In this document: positions 107 to 25,922 of the stretch, one piece after another
How the letters are laid out: each line of letters starts with the position of its first letter
Numbering within the stretch: position 1 is the stretch's first letter
Assembly (NCBI RefSeq): GCF_001550095.1
Contig: NZ_LRUC01000011.1
Coordinates: 62,001 to 126,000 of the forward strand
Source: Celeribacter ethanolicus
Lineage (GTDB): Bacteria > Pseudomonadota > Alphaproteobacteria > Rhodobacterales > Rhodobacteraceae
Direction of reading: 5' to 3'
DNA: 64,000 nucleotides
The notes under the pieces: generated by a model
What the model was told of the DNA's origin: nothing
Seen by the model: only the letters and a program-made list of their open reading frames with translations
Databases searched by the model: none
Position numbers and translations under genes: made by a program

Positions 107-1195
107 ATGAGCCTTGCCCCGACCCTCTCCGAGATCATCGCCCGCGCCCGCGCGGACATGCGCATGGGGGTGCCGGTGGTGCTCCGCTCCGAGGCAGGTC
201 ATGCGCTCGCCGTCGCCGCCGAAGACCTTTCGACCGAGCGTCTGGGCGATCTGCGCGGCCTTGGCGAGGCCTATCTCGCCATCACCGCCCGGCGCGCCGA
301 AACGCTCTCCGCCCGCGCCTATGATTCCGATCTCGCCCGCCTGATCCTGCCCGCCGACGCCGATGTCGACTGGATCAACGCGGTGGCCGATCCCGCCGAC
401 GATCTCACCCATCCGATGAAAGGCCCGTTCCGCTCTCTGCGCGGCGGCAATGCGATCTGCGCCCGCGCCGCGATTGCGCTGGCGAAATCCGCCCGCCTTC
501 TGCCCTCCGCCGTCATGGTCGATGTGAAAAACGGGTTTGAAATTGCCGCCACCAACGGGCTGACCGTCCTGCCGGTCGAGGCCGCTCTGCCGCTGATGGC
601 CGATCTCGCGCCGCTGCACGATATGATTCACGCCCGCGTGCCTTTGATCGCCTCCGAGAAATCCCGCGTCCATGTGTTCCGCCCCGAGGACGGCGGCGAA
701 GAGCATTACGTCGTCGAGGTCGGTCGCCCGGATCGCAGCAAACCTGTGTTGGCCCGTCTGCATTCCGCCTGTTTCACCGGCGACATCTTCGGCTCGCTGA
801 AATGCGATTGCGGCCCGCAGCTTCACGCCGCGCTCAACCAGATGGGCGAAGAGGGCGAAGGCATTCTGCTCTATCTCAACCAGGAAGGCCGCGGCATCGG
901 CCATGCCAACAAGATGCGCGCCTATTCCTTGCAGGATCAGGGATTCGACACGGTCGAGGCCAATCACCGCCTCGGCTTCGAGGACGACGAGCGCGATTTC
1001 CGCATCGGGGCGGCGATTCTCAAAGAGATGGGGTTCTCTGCCGTGCGGCTCCTGACCAACAACCCGAAAAAAATCGCCCGGATGGAAGATCAGGGCATCA
1101 CCGTCACCGAACGCGTGCCGCTCAAGGTCGGTGAGAATCGCTTCAACGAAGCGTACCTCGCCACCAAGGCGCACAAATCGGGGCATTTGCTGTGA
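107..1195 (+). CDS. ribA: GTP cyclohydrolase II (RibA) with N-terminal extension
   Basis: Catalyses the first step of riboflavin synthesis, opening GTP to 2,5-diamino-6-ribosylamino-pyrimidinone phosphate in the cytosol. The C-terminal ~200 residues carry the family signature: zinc ligands Cys222, Cys233 and Cys235, then the NQEGRGIG loop and the LLTNNPKK motif near the end. Residues 1-150 form an extra N-terminal domain not present in E. coli RibA but common in alphaproteobacterial versions; its function is not evident. The ATG at 107 is the first in-frame start after a short AT-rich leader. The stop overlaps the GTG of the next gene (GTGA), indicating translational coupling. No FMN riboswitch is recognisable in the 106 bases upstream. 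Confidence 0.93.
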
Positions 1196-1698
1196 GCAAC
1201 GGCCCGATGTTCAAAGCCACCGACATCGTCGTCACGCGCTGGGGCGCCCGCTTCATGGGTCGCCGCTTTCCCTGCTCCATCGGCAAGGGCGGCATCTCGG
1301 ACACCAAACGCGAAGGCGACGGCGCAAGCCCGCGTGGCAGTCACGCCCTTCCCGCACTCTATTATAGAGCCGACCGCATTCCCGCGCTGAACGGCGACAA
1401 GATTCGCGTCGGCGATCTCTGGTGCGATGCAGGCGATCATCCCGCCTACAACCATCTCGTGCGCGCGCCGTTCAAACCCAGCCACGAAAAAATGCGCCGC
1501 GCGGATCGTCTCTATGATCTGGTCATCATCACCGATTGGAACTGGCCGAATGCCACGCCGGGAAAAGGCTCCGCCATCTTTGTCCACCGCTGGCGCAAAC
1601 CGCGCCACCCGACAGAGGGCTGCGTGGCCTTCCGCGCAGATCATCTGCGCTGGATCGCCGAACGCATCACGCCCGCGACAAGATTGGTCATTCGCTAA
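1192..1698 (+). CDS. L,D-transpeptidase (YkuD-like) family protein
   Basis: A 168-residue protein resembling the stand-alone YkuD-type L,D-transpeptidase catalytic domain, which cross-links or modifies peptidoglycan through a cysteine nucleophile. Visible signs are an HRWRKP stretch followed by PTEGCVAF near residue 130-145, where the histidine and the Gly-Cys pair fit the H...(S/T)xGC active-site pattern. No signal peptide is obvious, which is common in this short subfamily but leaves its location open. Start taken as GTG overlapping the ribA stop (GTGA); an ATG at 1207 is the alternative. It is the last gene of the ribA unit and converges on yggS. Confidence 0.75.
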
Positions 1699-1712: not shown

Positions 1713-1752
1713 GTCCGACGGAAGTCCGACAAAAGTCCGACGTTTTGCCGAC
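1713..1752 (+). repeat. Four CCGAC units at 11-bp period (array 1)
   Basis: Units GTCCGAC, GTCCGAC, GTCCGAC and TGCCGAC begin at 1713, 1724, 1735 and 1746, exactly 11 bp apart. The array fills the gap between two convergent genes. An array with the same unit and period, in the opposite orientation, lies at 24727-24766 in another convergent gap. The two share the 16-mer TCCGACAAAAGTCCGA. Function unknown; one-helical-turn spacing suggests protein binding on one DNA face. Confidence 0.7.
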
Positions 1753-1763
1753 ACTGAAAATCG

Positions 1764-2417
1764 TCAGGAATAATCCCGCTCGCCAAAGATCGCGGACCCG
1801 ACCCGAACGTGAGTCGCGCCCTGTGCAATCGCGGTTTCGAAATCGCCGGACATGCCCATGGACAGGTCTGCAATCTGATTCCGGTCCGCGATTTTTTTCA
1901 AAAGCGCAAAATGCAGCGACGGCTCTTCTTCGGCGGGCGGAATACACATCAGCCCCTCGATCGACAGCCCTAGATCGCGACACTCTTGTATAAAGGCGTC
2001 CGCCTCGGCGGGTAAAACCCCCGCCTTTTGCGGCTCCTCACCGGTGTTCACCTGAATGAAAAGACGCGGGCAATGGCCCAGTTCTTCGGCGAGGCGGGCA
2101 ATGGTTTTCGCGAGTTTCAGACGATCCACCGTGTGAATCACATCGAACAATTCCATCGCCTGCCGCGCCTTGTTGGTCTGCAACGGTCCGATGAGATGCA
2201 GCTCGACGCCCTCGAAGCGGTCCTTGAATGCGGGCCACTTTCCGGCGGCCTCCTGCACCTTGTTTTCCCCGAAAACCCGCTGGCCTTCTTCAAGCACCGC
2301 CTCGACGCGTTCATTGGGCTGAACCTTGGAAACGGCAATCAAAGTGACGCTTTCCGGCGCACGCCCGACACGTTTTGCCTCGGTTTCGACCCGATACTTG
2401 ATCTCGGCAAGCCCCAT
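1764..2417 (-). CDS. yggS: YggS/PROSC family PLP homeostasis protein
   Basis: A 217-residue fold-type III pyridoxal-phosphate protein that buffers free PLP and balances vitamin B6 and amino-acid pools; it has no established catalytic reaction. The PLP lysine is in the LIAVSKVQP motif about 30 residues in, and the C-terminal GMSGDFETAIAQGATHVRVGSAIFG segment binds the cofactor phosphate. The start at 2417 is preferred over an upstream in-frame ATG (2447) because AAGGAGG lies 5 bases before it (2423-2429). Monocistronic, divergent from the porin gene and convergent with the L,D-transpeptidase gene. Confidence 0.92.
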   Translation of the reverse strand: MGLAEIKYRVETEAKRVGRAPESVTLIAVSKVQPNERVEAVLEEGQRVFGENKVQEAAGKWPAFKDRFEGVELHLIGPLQTNKARQAMELFDVIHTVDRLKLAKTIARLAEELGHCPRLFIQVNTGEEPQKAGVLPAEADAFIQECRDLGLSIEGLMCIPPAEEEPSLHFALLKKIADRNQIADLSMGMSGDFETAIAQGATHVRVGSAIFGERDYS

Positions 2418-2549
2418 ATCTGCCTCCTTGGACGATACAACCCACATTCCTTGGATTTCTTATGCCGCGGAGCGTAGCTCATGCAACAGGTGTGTGGCTA
2501 AGTTGCATCATTTTTCAGAGAGCTATGCCCACCGCCTCTCGTTTTCTTG

Positions 2550-11635: not shown

Positions 11636-12387
11636 GCGATCAATCCAAGTTGGCGGCGGAAACTTTCGTCCCGCAGTTGCAATTCCTCGCCCAGATGGGC
11701 ATCGGCACCCTCTCCGCACAGCCACAGAAGCGCACGGGCAGGCCAGTCCGGCGGGACGTGATCGGACCAGTCGAGCTGGCTCACGGCGTTGATGCCCGAA
11801 GCCTTGATCTCCCGCTGCATCTGGGTCGCGACCGTGCCAGGCGAAAGACCCATGGCGCGAATGCCATGGCTGCGCTCTTCGAGATCGAGCATGGCAGTCA
11901 GCATTGCCGCCCCGGCTTTCGAACTGCAATAGGCGCTCCACCCCTCGACCGGGCGATGCGCTGCGCCGGAAGAGACAGTCAGAACGGTGCCGCCACCGCG
12001 TGCGACCATCTCCGGCACGATCCGGCGCATGGCATAGAACACACCTTTGATATTGATGTCGATGAGGCGCGACCAATCGTCCGGATCCACGGTGGACAGT
12101 GCGCCGATCGGGTCGATCACACCGGCGTTGTTGACCAGAATGTCAATCGGGCCGAGATGATCCTCGACCTTTGTCACCGCCTGATCAAGCTCGGCATAGG
12201 AGGAAATATCGCAAGGCACGGCCAGAGCTTGCGGACCGATTTCGCCCGCGATCCGCGCAATTTCCGTGGCGCTGCGTGCGATCAGGGCCACCTTGGCACC
12301 CTCTGCCGCGAAAAGCCGTGCGGTCGCCTCGCCGATCCCCCGGCTTGCCCCGGTAATCAAAGCGGTTTTCCCCATCAGTTGCGACAT
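11632..12387 (-). CDS. Short-chain dehydrogenase/reductase
   Basis: A 251-residue classical SDR. It has TGASRGIG for NAD(P) binding near residue 13, NNAG at about 90, a catalytic Ser in VSSGAAH and the Tyr-x3-Lys pair in YCSSK. GGGAGGT precedes the start at 12387. It is first in the operon with the hydratase and the flavoprotein, suggesting oxidation of an acyl or hydroxy compound. The C-terminal end EELQLRDESFRRQLGLIA is distinctive but does not identify the substrate. Confidence 0.9.
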   Translation of the reverse strand: MSQLMGKTALITGASRGIGEATARLFAAEGAKVALIARSATEIARIAGEIGPQALAVPCDISSYAELDQAVTKVEDHLGPIDILVNNAGVIDPIGALSTVDPDDWSRLIDINIKGVFYAMRRIVPEMVARGGGTVLTVSSGAAHRPVEGWSAYCSSKAGAAMLTAMLDLEERSHGIRAMGLSPGTVATQMQREIKASGINAVSQLDWSDHVPPDWPARALLWLCGEGADAHLGEELQLRDESFRRQLGLIA

Positions 12388-16377: not shown

Positions 16378-17598
16378 TTATTTATAGTCCTCCATATCCT
16401 CGGCCACGGCGCGCGCCATAGCGGCGATGATGTCCGGATCGGCGGCATGGACCCGCGACCAGTTCGGGATGAACGGCGTCTCCATCGGGTTTTCCAGAAA
16501 CACGTTGCCCGCCTGAATGATGTTGTTAGCAAACAGTTCGACCGCCTGTTCTTCGACATGGCGGTCGACATGCAGCCCGTTCATTCGCGCATCGTTGAAA
16601 TAGGTTTCGATGAGATCGAGTGCGCCGCGATAATAGGTAGCCTTGATCGAACGGAAGATCTCTTCGGAAAACACCGTGCCATCGGCGGCGAGCTTGCGAT
16701 AGAGCGCCTTGCAAATGTCGACCGACATGCGCGACAGTCCGGTTGAGGCATCCTCCTGCGACAGGTCCTGATGCTTGTGATCGTAACGGTCGGAAATCTC
16801 GACCTGACAGACCGCGCGCGGGCTGAGGTTGCGCCAAGCCTCCGACAAAAGTCCGATTTCAAGTCCCCAGTCGGAGGGGATACGCATATCGGGCAGGATT
16901 GAGGTCCGCATGGCGAATTCACCGGCGAGCGGGTAGCGGAAATCGGCGAGGAAATCGAGAAAATCCTGCGGCCCCAAAACCTTCGAGAGCGCATGGATCA
17001 TCGGCGTCACCAGAAGCCGCGTCACCCGGCCGTTCAGCTTGCCATCGGCGACACGGGGATAGAACCCCTTGGACATCTGATAGGGAAAGGTCGGGTTCGC
17101 CACCGGATAGACCAGCCGCGCCAGCATCCCTGCCGAATAGGTCACGACATCGCAGTCATGCACCGCGACCACGGCACTGTCGGCGCGCGAGATCGTATAG
17201 CCGAGACAGAACCAGACATTGCGCCCCTTGCCGGGCTCGGAGGGCGACAGTTCAAGCTCCTTGAGACGCGCATCCACCGCCCGAAGCCGCGGCCCGTCGT
17301 TCCAGAGCACAACATGATCGGCCTTGAGGCGGGAAAAGAATTTCCGTGCGTAGCGATATTGTTCCTCGGTGGCGCGATCGAGACCGATCACGATGCGATG
17401 GACGAAATCCACCTTGTTCAGCTCGTCGATGATATTCGGCAGCGCCTCCCCTTCGAGTTCGGAAAACAGCGAGGGCAGGATCAGCGTGATCTTGCGCGAG
17501 GAAGCAAAGGCATTGAGATCCCGGCTCAGATCCTCTTCGGAATTGATGCGCAGGTTGTGCAGCGTCGCCACATGCCCGCCCTGATGAAAATCCGCCAT
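16378..17598 (-). CDS. gpgS: Glucosyl-3-phosphoglycerate synthase (GT81)
   Basis: A 406-residue retaining glycosyltransferase that would move glucose from an NDP-glucose to 3-phosphoglycerate, giving glucosyl-3-phosphoglycerate, precursor of the compatible solute glucosylglycerate. The GKGRNVW segment (124-130) and the metal-binding HDCD (Asp148, Asp150) fit GT81. A mannosyl donor (MPG synthase) cannot be excluded from sequence alone. AAAGG lies 8 bases before the start, inside the end of the phosphatase gene, whose stop is 3 bases upstream. The pair is an operon likely responding to salt or nitrogen limitation. Confidence 0.85.
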   Translation of the reverse strand: MADFHQGGHVATLHNLRINSEEDLSRDLNAFASSRKITLILPSLFSELEGEALPNIIDELNKVDFVHRIVIGLDRATEEQYRYARKFFSRLKADHVVLWNDGPRLRAVDARLKELELSPSEPGKGRNVWFCLGYTISRADSAVVAVHDCDVVTYSAGMLARLVYPVANPTFPYQMSKGFYPRVADGKLNGRVTRLLVTPMIHALSKVLGPQDFLDFLADFRYPLAGEFAMRTSILPDMRIPSDWGLEIGLLSEAWRNLSPRAVCQVEISDRYDHKHQDLSQEDASTGLSRMSVDICKALYRKLAADGTVFSEEIFRSIKATYYRGALDLIETYFNDARMNGLHVDRHVEEQAVELFANNIIQAGNVFLENPMETPFIPNWSRVHAADPDIIAAMARAVAEDMEDYK

Positions 17599-23488: not shown

Positions 23489-24622
23489 ATGGCTCAGATC
23501 AGTTTTCGCAACGCCCTGCCGTTCTGGCTGTCGCTGACCCTGTTGCCGTTCCTTTGGCTCGGAGCATTCGTCGGCGGCTGGGCCGTGATCATCGTGCCGC
23601 TTTATGCGTGGTACATGTTCGGATTCCTCGACGGGATTCTAGGGCTGAACACTGAGAATGCAGACCCGAACACGGCGGAAAGCGAGCTTTTCTGGTATCG
23701 CGCCATTACGATCATCTGGTTCCCGGTGCAATTCGTGAACATTTTTGCGCTGATCTGGTTCGTGACCCATACGGATCATCTCTCGACGCTCGAAACCATC
23801 GTGCTGTTCTTTGGGCTTGGCGTGTCTTCCGGCACGACCGGCATGGTTTATGCCCATGAGCTTTGCCACCAACGCAACAATATGGAGCGATGGCTTGGGG
23901 ATTTGCTTTTGGCTTCAGTTCTTTACTCGCATTTCCGGACCGAACATCTGCTCGTCCACCACAAGCACGTTGGCACCCGGCGCGATGCGGTCACGGCGCT
24001 CTATAACGAAGGGTTCCATCGCTATTTCCTCCGCGTGCTTCGAGAGTGCCCACGCTCGGCCTGGGAGGCGGAAAAGGCCCTGCTGGCGCGTAAGGGATTG
24101 TCCGAATGGAACCCGAAAAACCCGCATTTCCGCTACTGGACCTTGCAGATCCTGATGCTGATCCTTGCCACTCTGATCGGTGGCACAACTGGATTTTTTC
24201 TCTTTATCTGTCAGGCTTTAGTGGCGATATGGCAGCTCGAGCTGACCAATTACGTCGAACATTACGGCCTCACCCGGCGGCATCTGGGGGATGGTAAGTA
24301 TGAGCATGTCAAGCCGCATCATAGTTGGAATGCGGCGCATATGGCCACCAACTGGTTGCTGATCAATTTGCAACGCCATTCGGATCACCACTACAAACCC
24401 GACCGCCGGTTTCCGCTTTTGCAGACTTACGACGAGACCGAGGCCCCGCAATTGCCCTATGGCTACACTGTCATGGGGGTGGTCGCGATGGTGCCGCCGC
24501 TGTGGCGACGGATGATGAATCCCAAGGTGAAACAATGGCGTAGCCAGTATTACCCGGACCTCGAAACCTTCGAGGACTGGGAGCCTTACAAGAACGGCAC
24601 CAACCCTCTGCCCCGGCTCTAA
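23489..24622 (+). CDS. alkB: Alkane 1-monooxygenase (AlkB family)
   Basis: A 377-residue integral membrane di-iron hydroxylase that oxidises the terminal carbon of n-alkanes using rubredoxin electrons. The eight-histidine scaffold is visible: HELCH (123-127), EHLLVHHKH (152-160), NYVEHYGL and LQRHSDHH (His297, 300, 301). Several membrane helices precede and separate these. No rubredoxin, rubredoxin reductase or AlkS-type regulator is adjacent. The gene appears single, 27 bases after mutY. Confidence 0.93.
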   Translation: MAQISFRNALPFWLSLTLLPFLWLGAFVGGWAVIIVPLYAWYMFGFLDGILGLNTENADPNTAESELFWYRAITIIWFPVQFVNIFALIWFVTHTDHLSTLETIVLFFGLGVSSGTTGMVYAHELCHQRNNMERWLGDLLLASVLYSHFRTEHLLVHHKHVGTRRDAVTALYNEGFHRYFLRVLRECPRSAWEAEKALLARKGLSEWNPKNPHFRYWTLQILMLILATLIGGTTGFFLFICQALVAIWQLELTNYVEHYGLTRRHLGDGKYEHVKPHHSWNAAHMATNWLLINLQRHSDHHYKPDRRFPLLQTYDETEAPQLPYGYTVMGVVAMVPPLWRRMMNPKVKQWRSQYYPDLETFEDWEPYKNGTNPLPRL

Positions 24623-24626
24623 GCGC

Positions 24627-24659
24627 AAAAAAAGCCCCGCTGCGCAGACACAGCGGGGC
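24627..24659 (-). terminator. Terminator hairpin in the alkB - ccrM gap
   Basis: GCCCCGCTG (24634-24642) pairs with CAGCGGGGC (24651-24659). A run of seven A on the plus strand just before it gives a U tract for leftward transcripts, so it best serves ccrM, though it may also stop alkB. Confidence 0.7.
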
Positions 24660-24726
24660 CAAGGTGGTGCCGCGAAGTCAGGCCGCAGGCACCAGGCGGT
24701 AACTCTGAATTTCGGGAATTTCCCCT

Positions 24727-24766
24727 GTCGGATTTGCGTCGGATAAGTGTCGGACTTTTGTCGGAC
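24727..24766 (-). repeat. Four CCGAC units at 11-bp period (array 2)
   Basis: Plus-strand units GTCGGAT, GTCGGAT, GTCGGAC and GTCGGAC begin at 24727, 24738, 24749 and 24760, exactly 11 bp apart; the motif reads CCGAC on the minus strand. The outer flanks also pair (GGATAAGTGTC with GACACTTATCC, about 24741-24774). It is the counterpart of the array at 1713-1752 and likewise sits between convergent genes. Confidence 0.7.
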
Positions 24767-24785
24767 ACTTATCCCGCTCTGTCGC

Positions 24786-25922
<1,137 letters not shown>

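Follow-up and report, generated by a model that had tools for sequence, protein, structure and literature searches.

Helically phased four-unit CCGAC arrays dispersed in Celeribacter and other roseobacter genomes: candidate operators of a head-to-tail DNA-binding protein

The Celeribacter genome analysed here (designated G000), of which a stretch of 64,000 nucleotides formed the starting point (the window), carries a dispersed set of short arrays, each composed of four CCGAC-centred units at a strict 11-bp period. The cores of these units hardly change while the spacers vary freely, the arrays keep their positions between species, dialects with altered cores are found in other genera of the family, and whole sets are absent from relatives within the genus. 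We consider it moderately probable that the arrays are the operators of a single protein which binds DNA cooperatively and head to tail, coevolves with its site and is frequently lost.

The window contains two such arrays on opposite strands, both between convergent genes, precisely as an earlier sequence-only reading of this DNA had described them. The arrays and their surroundings are as follows.

1192..1698, plus strand: gene with a YkuD-type L,D-transpeptidase domain, flanking array 1 and stopping 15 bp short of the first TCCGAC
1713..1752, plus strand: array 1, with units TCCGAC, TCCGAC, TCCGAC and GCCGAC starting at 1714, 1725, 1736 and 1747 (11-bp period)
1753..1760, plus strand: AT-rich tract 3' of the last unit of array 1, letters ACTGAAAA, recurrent in the base-frequency profiles of five sets
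1764..2447, minus strand: gene with an Ala_racemase_N domain, flanking array 1, with 11 bp between the array and the 3' end of the gene
23489..24622, plus strand: gene with a fatty acid desaturase domain, flanking array 2
24727..24766, minus strand: array 2, with four TCCGAC units (at 24727-24765) at an 11-bp period
24786..25898, minus strand: gene with N6_N4_Mtase and RAMA domains, flanking array 2

The gene at 1764..2447 we take to be YggS-like and that at 24786..25898 to be CcrM-like, and array 2 is placed between the stop codon of the latter and a terminator-like hairpin at 24660-24633. When the window was scanned for pentamers of any sequence that recur four times at 11-bp steps, exactly two places were recovered, namely these arrays, against none in 60 simulated 64-kb sequences (first-order Markov), and the comparison with shuffled sequence proposed in the earlier reading has thus come out in favour of the arrays. 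The same reading noted that a 16-mer shared by the two arrays recurs at 16841. This copy does lie within coding sequence, but it is a two-unit match from which units 3 and 4 are absent, and it was therefore left out of the array count. Downstream of the CcrM-like gene, a minus-strand stretch with GTTACCGCCTGGTGCCTGCGG (24633-24720) is kept in many congeners and continues into the terminator-like hairpin; it is perhaps a small RNA or an ORF. Rfam models at gathering score gave no match in the 64-kb window, this stretch included.

Across the 4.2-Mb genome the two-unit pattern TCCGAC-N5-TCCGAC occurs at 61 places and its reversed control at none, so that the genome-wide count for which the earlier reading had called yields far more than the two copies of the window. 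With one mismatch allowed, the same pattern gives 157 places against 21 for the reversed control, and the four-unit pattern with up to three mismatches gives 80 overlapping match windows against 0; by our own count from the list of four-unit matches, 37 places are exact. The loci that were read hold 43 distinct dispersed arrays, all with four CCGAC units, a strict 11-bp period and AT-rich variable spacers. When periods from 4 to 30 were scanned in these loci, period 11 accounted for 51 matches (the loci overlap, and some arrays are counted more than once) and any other period for at most one. Two places, G000:C10:95965 and G000:C48:207682, are identical in the array and its near flanks and were counted as one; they perhaps represent a duplicated locus.

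Base-frequency profiles show that the arrays of G000 consist of four units, with little information at the position of a would-be fifth, a version from which genome G035 differs in having runs of five units and more. The flanks in Celeribacter are low in information, except for a TG or GG directly ahead of the first unit and the 3' AT-rich tract, which lies about 5-9 bp past the last core and is present in all five sets profiled. In 24 hand-chosen pairs of arrays the cores changed at 8 of 480 positions and the spacers at 128 of 432. Per position, the rate of change was 0.00-0.03 for the five core positions, 0.24-0.54 for the following five and 0.11 for the last. The unit can accordingly be described as about 7 conserved followed by 4 AT-rich positions, where the figure of 7 is approximate because the purine after the core may be A or G. 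The invariance of the cores is in part ascertained, since the arrays were found through them, and genome G304, discussed below, has looser cores.

Conservation of position was assessed with arrays sampled from six congeners, 40 of 65 of which match an array of G000 in nearest gene, side and strand, with a single one flipped. Conversely, 24 of the 43 arrays of G000, including both in the window, have such a partner in a congener. The gene end beside array 1 is also occupied by arrays in G299, G300 and G306, by one in the opposite orientation in G298, and by a decayed one in G307, and the gene end beside array 2 by arrays in G298, G299, G301 and G306 and by a mixed-core array in G304. As a check free of ascertainment, the two gaps were also fetched via their genes and not via arrays. 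Of the 5 other set-bearing genomes, 4 carry a CCGAC array in the gap at the YggS-like gene (the one in G298 again in opposite orientation), and 4 of the 5 likewise carry one in that at the CcrM-like gene. Neither gap contained a CCGAC array in any of the 13 genomes that lack CCGAC matches (0/13 and 0/13).

The phyletic pattern within the genus is patchy. Among 20 congeneric genomes, CCGAC matches were found in 7 (44, 37, 18, 16, 15, 11 and 3 match windows) and none in 13; six, including G000, carry a CCGAC set, one has the three matches, G304 carries a mixed-core set, and 12 gave none. In G304 the gap at the CcrM-like gene reads CCGAC, CATAC, CATAC, CATAT and then CAGAC at 11-bp steps, and four arrays were found in 376 kb, against 0-1 at other periods. 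As a mixed-core set is present, G304 represents a dialect and not a loss, and the lack of a CCGAC match does not equate to the lack of an array. Scans for any exact core and for C[AC][GT]AC in 8 of the remaining 12 genomes (1.1 Mb in all: 331 kb of G260, 160 of G302, 156 of G303, 100 each of G297, G305, G311 and G312, and 60 of G308; G295, G296, G309 and G310 lay outside this looser scan) recovered no arrays of that kind, whereas 360 kb of G269, used as a positive control, gave 6 arrays (exact, three units) or 8 (loose). The 60-160 kb from a single genome cannot exclude a set, and the evidence is the pooled 1.1 Mb. In the blind scan, locus L439 of G312 (around 11976-12020) showed TTTATCC three times at exactly 11 bp with a fourth nearby; this cluster, which we take to resemble a cluster of DnaA boxes, was not counted as an array of the phased kind. 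A two-gene tree shows set-bearing genomes intermingled with set-less ones and places G307, in which the first window array is decayed and the second missing, as the sister of G000. Several losses of sets within the genus would be the simplest reading, with their number depending on the rooting and on two genes, and the disappearance of entire sets appears better explained by loss of a common reader than by loss array by array.

Beyond the genus, the scan covered 295 genomes that belong to the family and were selected from a larger group; 73 of them gave some match. Since the reversed control also matches a few times in many genomes, only those with at least 8 match windows were counted, which leaves 21, including G000. 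G132 was dropped as a bearer of a set and is excluded from this number; its listed matches include plain identical repeats and its control gave 5. The dialects are TCCGACAAAAG-like in G000, ACCGACGTGAT-like in G151, G269 and G282, GCCGACGTTTT-like in G142 and CCCGACACTTG-like in G035. A core of another kind is found in G211, with no CCGAC match and 51 matches on the reversed control, the set of which has GCAGCC with the same period, four units and similar spacers (28 + 23 match windows, control 0). Two of these GCAGCC arrays share their neighbouring gene with CCGAC arrays of other genera: the distance from the start of chorismate mutase to the array is 29, 29 and 29 bp in G211, G269 and L074, and that from the 3' end of a gltD-like gene is 16, 14 and 12 bp in G211, L058 and L130. 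By a rough estimate about six neighbours shared between G211 and the rest are expected by chance, so that the evidence for the correspondence is the match of distance and orientation and not adjacency as such. The suggestion of the sequence-only reading that this might be a genus-specific intergenic repeat is therefore half right: only a part of the genus has sets, and the dialects spread through the family contradict restriction to one genus.

Among the matches listed in a named scan, roseobacters were represented by Shimia, Celeribacter, Salinihabitans, Roseovarius, Pseudooceanicola, Sulfitobacter, Marivita and others, and unrelated bacteria were found as well, mostly with plain tandem repeats. 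In some of the latter, namely L097 (Dehalococcoidia), L126 (Spirochaetales), L091, L134, L154 and L177, there are single arrays of CCGAC units at an 11-bp period whose spacers are partly unlike, and these singletons were excluded from the counts. Many of the arrays in G282 (L244-L273), together with L094, L113, L150, L166 and L186, are embedded in a composite spanning roughly 110 bp, in which GTTAAC occurs on either side, about 28 bp ahead of the array and about 25 bp past it, and TGATTCG follows downstream; no such composite was seen in the flanks in Celeribacter. Two consensus queries of a plasmid collection returned no Rhodobacteraceae record among the matches and one consensus query of a phage collection no match, although array-bearing species may be absent from both. 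IMG/VR gave 18 matches with one pattern, one of which resembles the element, and none with the other. This viral contig, L465, has a roseobacter-type array with unlike spacers and is perhaps a prophage or a stretch of host DNA; the remaining viral-contig matches are plain or nearly plain repeats. A literature search, with most subscription papers outside its reach, brought up no description of the element in the group.

The genomic context of the arrays was examined for 148 intergenic arrays from five sets (the 13 from G269, L202-L213, being drawn from a plus-strand-only listing), of which 47 lie in convergent gaps, 50 are codirectional-sense, 43 codirectional-antisense and 8 divergent. The background comprised the 501 gaps in these loci that measure 50 bp or more, those with arrays counted in (103 convergent, 301 codirectional and 97 divergent); gene calls were made with our own codon-based caller on what are mostly draft genomes, and the P values are exploratory. 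Divergent gaps are depleted (8/148 versus 97/501, P 2e-5) and convergent ones in excess (P 0.0055; 13 of 34 intergenic arrays in G000). The emphasis that the earlier reading had placed on convergent gaps thus holds as over-representation and not as a rule, 101 of the 148 arrays lying in other gaps. Sense and antisense arrays are about equally frequent (50:43, P 0.53), the codirectional ones are nearer the gene end in 56 cases versus 37 (P 0.06), and these 93 could include promoter sites. That both orientations are equally common over all arrays, though orientation is conserved at orthologous places (40 to 1), fits recognition as DNA better than as RNA.

Along the 3.6-Mb contig of G269 the 69 arrays listed are spaced slightly more evenly than random (CV 0.79 versus 0.98, P 0.027), with 2 to 12 per 400-kb bin and one sparse bin (2). 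The strand bias relative to replication that the earlier reading had suggested examining is at most weak (44 of the 69 arrays listed, P 0.03), the arms having been set by eye from sampled GC skew. KOPS- and Chi-like polar sequences differ from the arrays in their strong replichore strand bias. An apparent restriction of the arrays of G269 to the plus strand, considered as replichore polarity, was rejected as an effect of listing order, a longer listing having both strands.

Under the interpretation favoured here, each array of about 40 bp would be an operator in which every 11-bp unit is bound by one small DNA-binding domain, reading about 7 bp (NCCGACR) in the major groove and then about 4 AT-rich bp in the minor groove. 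Four protomers would bind cooperatively, lined up head to tail along the same helical face, and a single trans-acting protein per genome would read all arrays. Drift in the specificity of this reader would cause the arrays to drift together, as may have happened in the CCGAC/CAGAC/CATAC mix of G304 and the GCAGCC set of G211, and its loss would leave them to decay. The earlier proposal of a dispersed element bound on one face of the DNA is supported, if not proven, by the fixed period and number of units, the near-invariant cores and the free spacers, and further by the conservation of position and the absence of whole sets in relatives. We infer the reader protein, its fold, its being single and its chromosome-architectural role, the last in keeping with the nucleoid or chromosome-organising protein that the earlier reading had offered as an example. 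Given sites that number from about ten to over a hundred per genome, lie scattered along the chromosome in either orientation and are rare in divergent gaps, the complex is more likely to mark or structure the chromosome than to switch single promoters, a role to which the slightly even spacing in G269 lends indirect support. The main reading has its limits in some arrays at conserved places just ahead of genes (an lpd-like gene, chorismate mutase), 25-38 bp before the start codon, which may regulate these neighbours, and in two set-bearing congeners with just 11 and 16 match windows. A more far-reaching version, which we offer tentatively as a possibility that falls short of being probable, is that of an undescribed address system of roseobacters, in which one dispensable, fast-evolving reader would use four-unit arrays as marks at tens of transcription-neutral places, in the service of nucleoid organisation or segregation, with the code being rewritten (from CCGAC to mixed CCGAC/CAGAC/CATAC, or to CAGCC) when the reader changes and erased when it is lost.

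Several candidates for the reader or for the function of the arrays were tried and gained no support. Counts of HTH_17 (PF12728) in 20 genomes (1-15 matches in 19 of them) show no pattern with the arrays, and these family counts, in which orthologues are pooled, do not favour BldC-like HTH_17 proteins as readers. Clustering of the genes beside 207 arrays did not bring out a recurrent regulator, as might stand out under autoregulation from the same gene. MmeI-type methylation has the site TCCRAC, and an origin of the arrays as such sites was dropped because the core changes while the architecture stays.

Of the other explanations, the most credible, albeit unlikely, is that of a REP/MITE-like mobile repeat, in which the array would be the core of a small non-autonomous element, copied and tolerated outside promoters, with a periodicity that serves the copying machinery and not the host. 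Such an element would account for the dispersed, mostly intergenic placement and the rarity in divergent gaps, and it could point to the longer composite, with its GTTAAC and TGATTCG words, that many arrays share in G282 and some other genera, to the gap at ccrM, which by eye differs by about 60 bp with and without the array in the manner of an insertion or deletion, and to the one gap with an opposite orientation in G298. Against this, positions are conserved between species (40/65) and in a few cases between genera, the copies vary in their spacers and hardly in their cores, the flanks in Celeribacter are low in information, sequence beyond the core is shared in only a part of the genera, and G211 and G304 carry a different core at the same places. 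A classical regulon, with the arrays as operators of an OmpR/PhoB-type response regulator controlling the adjacent genes, seems somewhat more doubtful still. The 7+4 geometry and tetramer binding match those given for Mycobacterium tuberculosis PhoP in the accessible part of its description (PMC4832192), and some arrays do lie just upstream of conserved genes, but 8 of 148 are in divergent gaps and 47 in convergent ones, where promoters are unexpected, the neighbouring genes by eye share no pathway, and the cores shift between genera faster than we would expect for such regulators.

The result most against the main reading is that of folding, which was compared with recombined controls in which spacers and flanks were exchanged between arrays. 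The 65 congener arrays, pooled from six genomes, fold better than these controls (z -4.8 and -5.9), a clear excess that is weak in single congeners (G298 -2.6/-2.9, G300 -2.1/-1.9, G306 -0.9/-2.8), and it is for this reason that a folded element, be it a transcript hairpin, a DNA cruciform or a Rho-type loading site in the 3' UTR, is kept as a rival, though an improbable one. Its favourable points include the frequent position of arrays no more than tens of bases from a stop codon, the capacity of GAC-N4-GTC to pair in Celeribacter, the z of about -3 for array 2 of the window (-1.6 for array 1), long inverted repeats around the L026 array (around 1501) and at 24717-24772 of the window, and, by eye, a complementarity of flank and second spacer at the ccrM gap that is present in G000, G298 and G306 in different letters. 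On the other side, no pairing excess over the recombined controls is seen in G000, G282 or G269 and the signal in G211 is weak (-1.2/-1.6), the ACCGAC and GCAGCC dialects are without GAC/GTC pairing, no Rfam family is found in the window at gathering score, and sense and antisense arrays are equally common, though hairpins are strand-neutral. Chance or plain tandem-repeat slippage, finally, has a negligible probability and for Celeribacter is already refuted: plain 11-bp tandem repeats with the same core do occur in unrelated bacteria and phage contigs, but 61 places against 0 in the control, the empty simulations, the unlike spacers within one array and the conservation all speak against it.

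If one protein indeed reads all arrays, the relatives constitute a natural experiment in which dozens of operators per genome switch or vanish together. A change of specificity in protein and site, in step, would then become directly testable, and the arrays would point to a chromosome-wide factor in an abundant marine group.

Parallels to the proposed mode of binding are provided by several known systems. PhoP of M. tuberculosis, of the OmpR/PhoB family, binds 7-bp motifs that are arranged as direct repeats and separated by 4-bp spacers (11-bp period), with a helix in the major groove, the wing in the adjacent minor groove and stacking to tetramers, according to the available portion of the report (PMC4832192). 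The arrays share this geometry in their 11-bp direct repeats of about 7 conserved and 4 AT-rich positions, with a further 3' AT tract. OmpR/PhoB sites, however, serve promoters, whereas the arrays reach up to about a hundred copies, are rare in divergent gaps and change their core between relatives. BldC of Streptomyces, a small winged-helix protein, forms asymmetric head-to-tail multimers on direct repeats, 4:1 on four repeats, with 9-bp units and an AATT-type motif at promoters, as the accessible text states (PMC5859096). The four direct repeats are alike in the two systems, but the units are of 11 bp and not 9, and HTH_17 counts do not track the arrays. RdfS of Mesorhizobium, an alphaproteobacterial winged-helix protein and excision factor of a mobile element, forms head-to-tail oligomers on DNA, with no consensus motif apparent in the available part of its description (PMC11963761). 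It resembles the putative array reader in these oligomers and differs in that the arrays have a consensus.

Among chromosome-binding proteins, the alphaproteobacterial ZapT of Caulobacter occupies 10 positions, mostly inside ORFs and biased towards the terminus, for which the part of the report at hand gives no consensus motif (PMC7188993). The arrays, in contrast, are mostly intergenic and have a consensus. The sites of matS/MatP, SlmA and Noc number tens of copies over one chromosome, are palindromic and are read by one protein; the arrays are comparable in copy number, but are polar direct repeats of four units with drifting specificity. REP/BIME elements are dispersed, intergenic, outside promoters and in either orientation, and the arrays are placed likewise, but the former are palindromic and the latter direct repeats with near-invariant cores and free spacers. 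A likeness to the dialects is offered by the DNA uptake sequences of Neisseriaceae, of which related genera have different versions of one word in thousands of single copies, where the arrays have tens of four-unit copies.
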